Shown: piece by piece, positions 14,221 to 17,771 of the stretch
Layout: each line of letters opens with the position of its first letter
Position numbering within the stretch: the stretch's first letter is position 1
Source of the DNA: Eudorina sp. 2006-703-Eu-15
Lineage: Eukaryota; Chlorophyta; Chlorophyceae; Chlamydomonadales; Volvocaceae
NCBI GenBank assembly: GCA_003117195.1
Contig: BDSI01000002.1
Span: 899,621 to 963,620 of the forward strand
DNA: 64,000 nt
Direction of reading: 5' to 3'
The notes under the pieces: generated by a model
What the model saw: only the letters and a program-made list of their open reading frames with translations
The model's database searches: none
What the model was told of the DNA's origin: nothing
Position numbers and translations under genes: made by a program

Positions 14221-17200
14221 TAGGTGGCAATGGTAAGTCAGCTACATACCGTACGTACCCCCACTGCGGCTGATTTGCAGATATGGACAGGGAGGTCCCA
14301 ACAAACACCAGCGCACCTTGGGGTTTGAATGCTTGCGCACCCGATATGCTCCCGCCGATGGCCGCTGCCACGCCGATAGCATGGCACGCACTCCTGGCCC
14401 ATCCACCGAATGACACACCACAGCAGCTGGGCTCATCCAGGCTCATGCGCGTAAGGTTCGCGTGTGCTTTGGCTGGGCATCAGCGGGCGCTTGATGACGC
14501 GGCGGAGCATGCGGGCCAGCCAGAGCATGCCCGGGACGCGGATGGATGGACTGGGTCGAGTGACGAGCGCAGTCCGTGTGACGAGCGAGCAACGCGAGCA
14601 GCAGCACGTGCACGTCTTGCGCGCCCGTGCATGGATGCATGCGAACTGCTGGCTACTGTGGCTGGCAGAATGCATGACGTACGGGCGATGATCTAGATAG
14701 CTCCCTCGTGCTGCAGGACGGCGTGCGGATCGAGGCAGTGCGGCGCGCGTAACGGCGCGGTAACGTAATGTGTGACCAAACCGATTGCCTGTTCTGGACA
14801 CGTCGCCCCGCCCTTTCTTCTCTTCTTTCTCAGAGGAATGTATGATCCACTAGATCCACTAGGAATTTCCGACGGCACCTCCAGGGCTGAAGTGCTGGCG
14901 TGGAGGCATCAACCGCAACCGTCGATCTACCGAATAGACGTGAGAAGGTGAGACAGGTGATGACAAGTGAGAACGGAAAACTAAATTAGAAGGGAGCTCA
15001 AAGTCAGCAGATGGATTCTGCCATATGCGAAGGTATGCGATAGGAAGCGCGCGAAAGCATGCTGGTGCGGCGCCCCAAACGATCTGAAACCCGACGGCTG
15101 ACAGCAGCAGCAGCAAGCAGCCTGACCAGGACGCAACCCAAATGTGAGCTGTCTGGGAACGTTTGGCCAAATCCTTGGCTAACTTTTTTTCTACTTTAAA
15201 TTACTCTTGGCTTGTCGTTGTCTAATCTTGGAAACCACTTCAGACGTCGGGCTTCTGTTGGCGCGCGGCATTCCTGTGGCAACGAACCTTTCATGGGATC
15301 ATAGCATGCCGACGGCTGCGGTCCCCCCGGAGCCCGATGTATGTTTCCTTAGGGCGACCGAGATGACGGCGATTGCCATCCAGCAGAGCCGGAAGGTAAG
15401 ACGTTTCGAAGGGAAAGACCGAACGGCCTACAAGGGCAACGTCCGAGCAGGGCTCGGGCCGAAACCGTACTGCCAATACCGAAATAGTTTCCGATTTCTG
15501 GCGAAACCTCGCGAAACCTACGGAAACCATCGGAAACCTCAAAATGCTGTAATTAATGACGTGCATGCTATAACATCGTTTCTAGTGGGCCCTACGTGCC
15601 GTGGCGCATCTGGGACGTGCTGTAATGCACCCTTGGATCACTTTACTGTTACCGGCTAAGGTGCATCCCCTGAATCTTCCGAAGTGCAACCGGTGTGAAA
15701 TGCTGAGGAGAAGCTGACAGGCTTATCCGCTGGCTGTGTGATGAAGCCGTGAGGTGCAATGGTGGGGTAGAACGGGGCCCAAAGGGGGAGGGACTGCCCA
15801 AAGGGGGGGGGCTGCGGCATTCCTCTCCTTACACGTTACCGCCGGGCCAGAAGATCTGTCCTGCATTTCTCTCCTTATTAGCATCTTTCTTGCGTACGCT
15901 TTGCTTCACACCTAGTGACACGATACCACGACCAGTCGACGCTGGCCCAACACTAGACCGCAGGATGCGCATCTCCTGAAGGCGCCCTTGCTTAGACTCG
16001 GTCCGGCAGTAGTTGCAGACGACTGTCCAGTTCTTAGACTTTGAGTTGTACTCCTTTTTCTCATAGTGAGCCCAGACGGCCTGATCAGAGGGCCTTCCGC
16101 CCTTATTTTTGACTGGCTCAGAGTCCCCGCCGCTCAGAGCGGAAGTTGTCGCAGACATTTCTATGTTTATTTAACATTCGCATAGTTTCGCAGCTCTCCA
16201 TAACGCGCGTACAGGGTTGCGACCGTATTAGTTTTGGCCGTTTGCCGTATTATTGGACCTCAAATTAATACGCCAGGCGTATTGGCGTAATGTACGACAG
16301 CTGAAATTCGCTGGGCGTAATGTTCAGGCTGTGGCGTATCTTTTCTTACAGTATTCTGCGCCAAAACACCTGAAAATTGCGGGCGAAACAATAGCGTATT
16401 CAACTGCGTCATAATAGCAGGGCTATCTCGCTCAGTAGTCGCAGGCTGGCATCATTGACCTTCCTTCTCACTTGCCGCGTTTTCTTTCCCACACGCCCAA
16501 GACACGTATGGGCAAGCCAAAATGCCATTGAACATATTGTCAGTTTCAATGTTGGCACGCGCTGATATCAGCTCCCCCGAGTGCCTACCAGCGCGTGCAG
16601 AGCCAGACCGCCAGAAACTGATCACCTCGCCAATCAACTATAAAAGGCATCTCAAACAGTGAAAAGCGGACAGCTATGCAAATCAGGTATGATACCCCGT
16701 CAGCCCGCTTCCGTGAACCCCCGTCCCCCTCCACCACCCCTCCCCCGCATCCGCTCCCCCTCCCCCGCATCCCCGTCCCCCGCTCCCCCCGCTGCAAAGT
16801 AGTCGCCTAATACTCCCGTTTTAGGTCCTGGTTTGGCCTTCTTGCGTTCGGGCCCGTCCGCATCATCCATCTCCGCCACTGGGCGTGAAACCTGAGATGG
16901 ACTGTTTCACCTATGCCAAGAGATAAACTTCCTTTTATCAGTAGACTGAAGCTTTTGGAGAGTAGATGACGCGTTCATACGTTCATTTCATCATTTGCGC
17001 GCGGTTTCGGTGCCTGTATGCCCTGAGCGATAAACGAATACGCCAAGAATACGCCCGGAATACGCCGCCCTAAAAACCGACCACCGTCCAGGCGTATTAT
17101 TGGCGTATTAGGGCGTATTGTGCTTGGCGTATTGTGCCGGAATACGGTCGCAACCCTGCGCGCGTAGCCTTTGAAATAAGAAAAAGTAGGTTCCGCGGTA

Positions 17201-17771
17201 CGGCACAAGCCGAAAGGGGCCGAAACAGGTTTCGGCCTTTCCGCAGAACCAGGACCTCTTCGTCGGAAACACCGAAACTGGTTTCGGCAGGTTTACGTTT
17301 CGGCAGGTTTACGTTTCGGCCCGAGCCCTGCGTCCGAGACACATCATTAGCACTTCCCCAGGACTGCAAATCCATCCGTCCACCATAATTGATAGATGAA
17401 GGTCGCGTAGCTTTGCAAGCCCAATGAATCAGCCTGTTCGTTGCCGTGGACGCCTCGGGTCATCTATCGATCGGTGACAGGCGAATCGAATTGTCTTGAC
17501 GCACCAGCCACGCGTAGAGAAGGGGAAGCCGCGCGCTCCCCCACGGAAGGCCGAAGCCCGAACAAGGACGACATACAAGCGCATTGAAGGCCCAGGCCAG
17601 GCCCCGCCGCTCCGCACGCTTGGCAACGATCCATCCCTGTCCATGGCGACTAGCTGCTGCCTACCTAGCTGCCTGCCTACCCGCCCGGGCGCCCCTTGCT
17701 GCCCCTGCGAACCACCGAAGCGGTGCCCCGTGGCTGTTCACGGGACCGGGGCGGGAGCCGACCTTGGGTAA
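14221..17771 (+). CDS. Unrecognised multi-exon gene with microexons, 5' end not found
   Basis: Phase-matched exons: 14221-14232 (12 nt), 14281-14450, 14717-14748, 14834-14939, 15011-15032 (22 nt), 15244-15395 and 17481-17771 (TAA). Key peptides in order are DMDREVPTNTSAPWG, DGVRIEAVRRA, GMYDPLDPLGISDG, SIYRIDMDSAICED, LLLARGIPVATNLSWDHSMP, FLRATEMTAIAIQQSRK and the basic HQPRVEKGKPRAPPRK. Joining the exons gives one frame without stops, and the peptides read like folded protein rather than low-complexity shadow. I do not recognise the family. The last intron (15396-17480) is about 2.1 kb only because transposons are inserted in it; without them it would be about 190 bp. The last exon could instead be cut by a donor at about 17768. 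The start codon and first exon are unknown. Confidence 0.5.
15829..16158 (-). pseudogene. Truncated BED-finger N-terminus of hAT transposase
   Basis: A 109-residue frame starts at 16158. It contains GRPSDQAVWAHYEKK, then WTVVCNYCRTESK, i.e. the conserved aromatic plus CxxC half of a BED zinc finger found at the N-terminus of hAT transposases. The following His ligands and the whole catalytic and dimerisation regions are missing, so this is an internally deleted transposase. Confidence 0.7.
16212..17158. mobile_element. Inner nested non-autonomous hAT element (MITE-like)
   Basis: The terminal inverted repeats CAGGGTTGCGACCGTATT (16212-16229, complement at 17141-17158) are perfect. They are flanked by a perfect 8-bp target duplication CGCGCGTA (16204-16211 and 17159-17166). 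The sub-termini are packed with AATACGCC/GGCGTATT motifs. No transposase-like frame is present in its 947 bp. It inserted into the outer hAT element about 50 bp upstream of that element's BED-finger start codon, so it is the younger insertion. Confidence 0.93.

Follow-up and report, generated by a model that had tools for sequence, protein, structure and literature searches.

In this work we describe a nested pair of transposable elements that is very probably the product of two successive cut-and-paste insertions of two different, non-autonomous, Ds-like elements of the hAT type. The window analysed is a 64-kb stretch of DNA (bases 899621-963620 of contig C2) from an assembly of 181 Mb in 3033 contigs, and the pair that it contains is real, recent and ordinary. 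Its component features, with the means by which each was defined, are as follows.

15440..15447, no strand: left target-site duplication of the outer element, CGTCCGAG (direct reading and script check)
15448..17330, minus strand (that of its transposase remnant): outer hAT-like non-autonomous element (reading, assembly searches and copy comparison)
15448..15465, plus strand: left terminal inverted repeat of the outer element, CAGGGCTCGGGCCGAAAC (end scan and script check)
15946..16158, minus strand: outer transposase-start remnant with the first half (C-x2-C) of a BED-like zinc finger (Pfam scan and relatives)
16204..16211, no strand: left target-site duplication of the inner element, CGCGCGTA (direct reading and script check)
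16212..17158, minus strand (that of its transposase remnant): inner hAT-like non-autonomous element, 947 bp (assembly searches and copy comparison)
16212..16229, plus strand: left terminal inverted repeat of the inner element, CAGGGTTGCGACCGTATT (end scan and script check)
16784..16870, minus strand: first 29 codons of the inner transposase, ending before a finger-like stretch (comparison with a relative on contig C5)
17141..17158, minus strand: right terminal inverted repeat of the inner element, CAGGGTTGCGACCGTATT inverted (end scan and script check)
17159..17166, no strand: right target-site duplication of the inner element, CGCGCGTA (direct reading and script check)
17313..17330, minus strand: right terminal inverted repeat of the outer element, CAGGGCTCGGGCCGAAAC inverted (end scan and script check)
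17331..17338, no strand: right target-site duplication of the outer element, CGTCCGAG (direct reading and script check)

The outer element consists of 928 bp of its own sequence, the inner element and the second copy of CGCGCGTA, which together form a composite of 1883 bp. Direct reading and a script confirmed that both elements possess perfect 18-bp inverted ends, past which the two ends of each element diverge, as well as perfect 8-bp duplications, and the coordinates assigned to the pair in a preliminary description of this DNA are correct to the base. When up to three mismatches are allowed, the 64-kb window contains two occurrences of each end sequence, all of them exact, and none of 100 shuffles yielded two matches to either end. 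That description had further placed the inner element just upstream of the start of the outer element's BED-finger fragment, and indeed this minus-strand fragment begins at 16158, with 46 bp separating it from the inner duplication. It was also right that neither element carries a complete transposase; both retain the start of the gene only.

The pair had in addition been assigned to an intron, made about ten times longer by the insertions. Such a location, through which the pair would alter a host gene, appears unlikely. The boundaries of a candidate intron can be recognized in AAG/GTAAGA, following the open stretch 15246-15395, and in CCCCAG at 17356-17361. However, the codon score of the proposed exon (15246-15395) is 0.005, a value that 553 of the 2507 open windows of the background reach or exceed, in a test that is weak in that its four training frames came from the window, its windows overlap and its background was drawn from the same neighbourhood. 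A codon scan over approximately 13.8-19.5 kb returned scattered weak signals only, at 14400 and 17550, and a pieced query combining the exon with parts of a nearby kinase gene identified none of 7995 scored candidates at E 0.001, in a collection that may contain few relatives of this organism. With a codon score resembling background and no protein relative at E 0.001, the intron location and the tenfold lengthening are unsupported, and the evidence leans against them.

The search for further genomic copies that had been proposed with the preliminary description yielded, in the assembly, seven other full outer copies and four other full inner copies sharing the respective pairs of ends. For the outer family, the exact end occurs 19 times in the 181-Mb assembly (10 forward and 9 reverse), while a backwards control gave none. 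At three mismatches the outer end is indistinguishable from the control (90 and 101 matches vs 88 and 93), and full copies were therefore drawn from ends that are exact or carry one mismatch. A DNA search of the assembly returned at least 21 outer-family matches, among which eight copies have both ends exact: that in the window, one each on C112 and C43, two on C66 (at 62 kb and 79 kb), and one each on C409, C244 and C2450. Since the last three have identical flanks they were counted once, giving six independent full loci. Perfect 8-bp duplications flank five of the six, reading CGTCCGAG, AATTTGGC, GGTACGAC, GACGCACC and GATATGAG in the orientation of the outer element. The sixth has unequal flanks without a matching duplication, and its outer-on-outer junction recurs with the same flanks at C409:5407, C244:71949 and C2450:5801, representing either segmental copies or uncollapsed haplotypes; the left flank belongs to another outer copy, and the site is thus a rearranged or self-nested one. 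Excluded from these counts as truncated or more diverged were members on C91, C29 (two), C57, C32 and C37, together with part copies on C244, C409 and C2450. The outer copy in the window differs from the seven other full copies by 2-6 substitutions over 922-928 aligned bases (0.22-0.65%); a 9-bp deletion and one substitution are unique to it. Percent identities from the DNA searches of the assembly are lower than such substitution-based figures because they count gaps.

The exact inner end is found 13 times in the 181-Mb assembly (5 forward and 8 reverse; none for the backwards control), and at three mismatches remains above the control (64 and 64 matches vs 22 and 20). At least 47 inner-family matches were returned by the DNA search of the assembly, many of them short and limited to one stretch of the query. 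Five loci have both ends, namely the window, C23, C8, C30 and C29, with one mismatch in one of the C30 ends, and all five are flanked by perfect 8-bp duplications. Between the window copy and the four other full copies there are 5-15 substitutions over 927-947 bases (0.53-1.58%). Truncated or more diverged members were again excluded, among others those on C5, C49, C2134 and C486 and pieces on C23.

Several relatives of these families have features of their own. In the inner-family copy on C49 (C49:263900-266500) the first 60 bases are found about 1 kb from the rest and in the opposite orientation, an arrangement resembling an inversion. A sister family, defined by the ends CAGGGTTGGTACCGTATT and by an N-terminus akin to that of the inner family, is represented at C5:968 kb, C120:133 kb and C95:483 kb, where the flanking 8-mers match at 8 of 8 positions on C120 and C95 and at 7 of 8 on C5. 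One of its ends also occurs about 100 bases from the outer-family relative on C91 (L020, C91:350585-351399; 698 bp, one end with two mismatches), where the two are adjacent rather than nested. Furthermore, an inner-type left end is present in a repeat of 7.64-7.72 kb arranged in direct order at C81:1-8400 and found also on C898, C1051, C1524 and C1677; this end is old (in C81, 74% over 89 bases, with CAGCG in place of CAGGG). Ribosomal DNA was considered as the identity of the repeat and set aside, there being no Rfam match across 8.4 kb, or about one unit.

Assignment of both elements to the hAT superfamily, as made in the preliminary description, is likely rather than proved, and is the best available. 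Both ends start with CAGGG, in agreement with the hAT end consensus (T/C)A(A/G)NG given in PMC6027215, and duplications of 8 bp are described as usual for hAT elements (PMC12730594). When compared with the plant pattern [T/C]AGNGNNG, the inner end fits fully and the outer end at 7 of 8 letters. With respect to coding sequence, the outer BED-finger fragment reported earlier is present, although the 29 codons in the inner element had been overlooked. The outer fragment matches the Pfam zf-BED profile at E 0.091, and the outer-family relative on C91, which keeps the whole finger, does so at E 0.049 over positions 2-43 of 44, both values being below the cut-off. The inner 29-codon start shares 90% identity with the beginning of a longer frame in the C5 relative. 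That frame runs on through a finger-like stretch (recognized by eye) into a segment with a weak alignment to the N-terminal portion of a C58 gene (E 0.004 in a single-pair comparison). We take this segment to resemble the usual hAT N-terminal motif. The inner N-terminus itself had no credible Pfam match, no relative at E 0.001 among 858 candidates from the protein collection and three matches to solved structures (E 0.76 or worse), none of them meaningful, and searches for a catalytic or dimerisation domain found none in either family; in the two elements themselves this absence is what deletion derivatives would show.

The C58 gene was identified through profile searches of the assembly, in which DUF659 (PF04937) gave two matches (best E 2.7e-23) and the hAT dimerisation domain (PF05699) one (E 2.6e-9), all on C58. 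These matches apparently belong to one gene with several open frames and without recognised transposon ends (L070, C58:306500-310600), perhaps a domesticated or decayed hAT gene, which has no recognised link to either element. It was rejected as a source of transposase, as end pairs with an exact 8-bp duplication within 8 kb score at most 9 of 14 letters. Each element had been expected to depend on a transposase encoded elsewhere, and autonomous partners with full transposases were sought in the assembly with the PF05699 and PF04937 profiles and with both N-terminal proteins (11 matches for that of the inner element, 25 for the outer BED protein). No complete partner was found by these searches; the relatives inspected are truncated, and some of those listed were not read to the end.

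The subterminal regions offer further resolution of the two families. The motif CGAAAC is present ten times in the outer element (mean 0.68 and maximum 4 in 300 shuffles) and AATACGCC nine times in the inner element (mean 0.03 and maximum 1 in 300 shuffles), with every copy of both within 190 bases of an element end; both motifs were selected after inspecting the sequence. In the Ac/Ds system, as reported in PMC3260210, the transposase binds to several AAACGG hexamers situated close to the ends, and these most likely confer specificity. The view that two different families are nested here holds for the subterminal arrays as it does for the ends, and since both differ between the families, two transposases represent the simplest reading. 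Both elements are best read as internal-deletion (Ds-like) derivatives that have kept their ends and the start of the gene.

Alternatively, the elements could belong to another superfamily that generates 8-bp duplications, such as Zisupton/KDZ or P, with the BED-like finger a look-alike, which we regard as rather improbable. P elements also produce 8-bp duplications, and neither family showed a catalytic or C-terminal domain of hAT type. Target duplications of this length are likewise a feature that Zisupton/KDZ elements share with the pair (PMC12730594). No other KDZ feature was noticed in it. Against such an assignment, the CAGGG ends match the hAT consensus, a relative of the outer element has a BED-type finger (a weak match), the inner N-terminus aligns weakly with a gene bearing both DUF659 and the hAT dimerisation domain, and the subterminal arrays are comparable to those of Ac/Ds.

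That the inner element entered an outer element is visible in the other outer copies. A 48-bp sequence joining the two outer halves with a single CGCGCGTA is exact in all seven other full outer copies (five independent loci), and also in the C244 part copy (L053), while in further members of the family the same query matches at 47 of 48 positions (L020), 45 of 48 (L021) and at most 38 (L022). The presence of a single exact CGCGCGTA in these sister copies indicates that the inner insertion was precise and, as far as seen, is private to the copy in the window. Empty sites had been proposed as a check on the nested structure: for the inner insertion the break falls exactly at CGCGCGTA in paralogous copies, whereas no allelic empty site was found in the assembly. 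For the outer insertion, a 1.25-kb left flank and a 203-base joined-flank query recovered no empty site in the assembly, matching only their own locus apart from 66 bases of the left flank at 80% on C51. The claim that both insertions are recent is upheld by the divergence among copies (0.2-1.6%); the perfect duplications on which it was originally based are insufficient alone, and dating by them was set aside in favour of copy divergence.

It might also be proposed that the inner element joined the outer one elsewhere and that both arrived here as one composite unit. The intact outer ends would in principle allow the 1883-bp composite to move, and sequence alone gives no dates for the two events at this locus; on the other hand, the inner element is absent from every one of the seven other full outer copies and no second composite occurs among the assembly matches listed (DNA matches being lower bounds), and we consider a composite arrival quite improbable. 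An assembly chimera of two repeat families is more improbable still, since, although near-identical repeats are prone to wrong joins and the evidence here is an assembly rather than reads, both insertions have exact and distinct 8-bp duplications and the inner one fits the empty site base for base.

Other outer copies also host insertions. The copy on C66 at 79 kb (C66:78800-82700) holds a 2739-bp mariner-like element between TA duplications, with 540-bp inverted ends that are 99.8% identical. Three open frame pieces of this element were scanned, of which two match DDE_3 (E 8e-15, over the cut-off, and E 9.3e-5, under it) and the third has a winged helix match under the cut-off. The mariner-like element entered 38 bases from the point equivalent to the inner insertion in the window. 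On C244 (L053, C244:65200-71700) an outer copy is split by a copia-type retroelement that lies between CCTGG duplications and has reverse transcriptase, integrase and gag matches; its integrase-RT frame precedes the gag frame, which is an unusual order. In the coordinates of the outer element in the window, the entry points are 726 (mariner-like), 764 (hAT-like) and 851 (copia-type) of 928, spanning 125 bases as do 5.0% of simulated triples, and all three lie upstream of the leftover start codon at 711, an outcome expected in 1.3% of cases if entry were uniform. Both percentages rest on the same three points and were computed post hoc, and three events are too few for a claim of preference; we give little credence to the possibility that other transposons insert preferentially into the stretch just upstream of the leftover start of the transposase.

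Returning to two successive insertions as the preferred reading, a transposase acting in trans would have placed the outer element of about 0.93 kb at CGTCCGAG and duplicated 8 bp there. Another transposase, distinct from the first, would later have placed the 947-bp inner element beside the leftover transposase start of the outer one, duplicating CGCGCGTA. The ends and subterminal arrays would constitute the putative recognition sites of each transposase, and both elements retain these without the catalytic part. The insertions with their duplications, the further copies, the paralogous empty site of the inner element, the low divergence and the retained gene starts are observed; we infer the superfamily, the involvement of two separate transposases, the order of events at the locus and any present mobility.

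The nested pair differs from the chromosome-breaking double Ds in that it comprises two families with different ends, while the nested elements of a double Ds have ends in common. In maize, the Ds-like copies described in PMC3260210 host LTR retroelements and less often DNA transposons, and Ds types are reported to nest less often than LTR retroelements do, probably as a result of chromosome breakage by nested Ds. Two families whose ends differ would presumably escape such a breakage penalty. Like the Ds-del, Ds2 and Ds-like elements of the maize Ac/Ds system, which also make 8-bp duplications, the elements described here are non-autonomous, with defined ends, 8-bp duplications, subterminal repeats and, as in some of the maize elements, pieces of a transposase gene (PMC3260210); they differ in their end sequences and subterminal motifs, and no autonomous partner was found for them. 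Among algae, PMC6027215 counts 13 hAT elements in Chlamydomonas reinhardtii and 11 in Volvox carteri, and describes ends of the (T/C)A(A/G)NG type, which are shared with the present elements in a comparison by description only, and an N-terminal BED-type finger in the complete transposases of these two species.

Among the literature matches listed, covering hAT elements, nesting, small inverted-repeat elements and algae, no title concerns these elements; Repbase lay outside the scope, and an earlier description is possible. Together this work adds two Ds-like families of low copy number and little divergence, for which no source of transposase was found in the assembly. The understanding of nesting or of hAT transposition is unchanged by the nested pair, which provides a clean example of transposon nesting in which the pre-insertion site is kept in seven sister copies.
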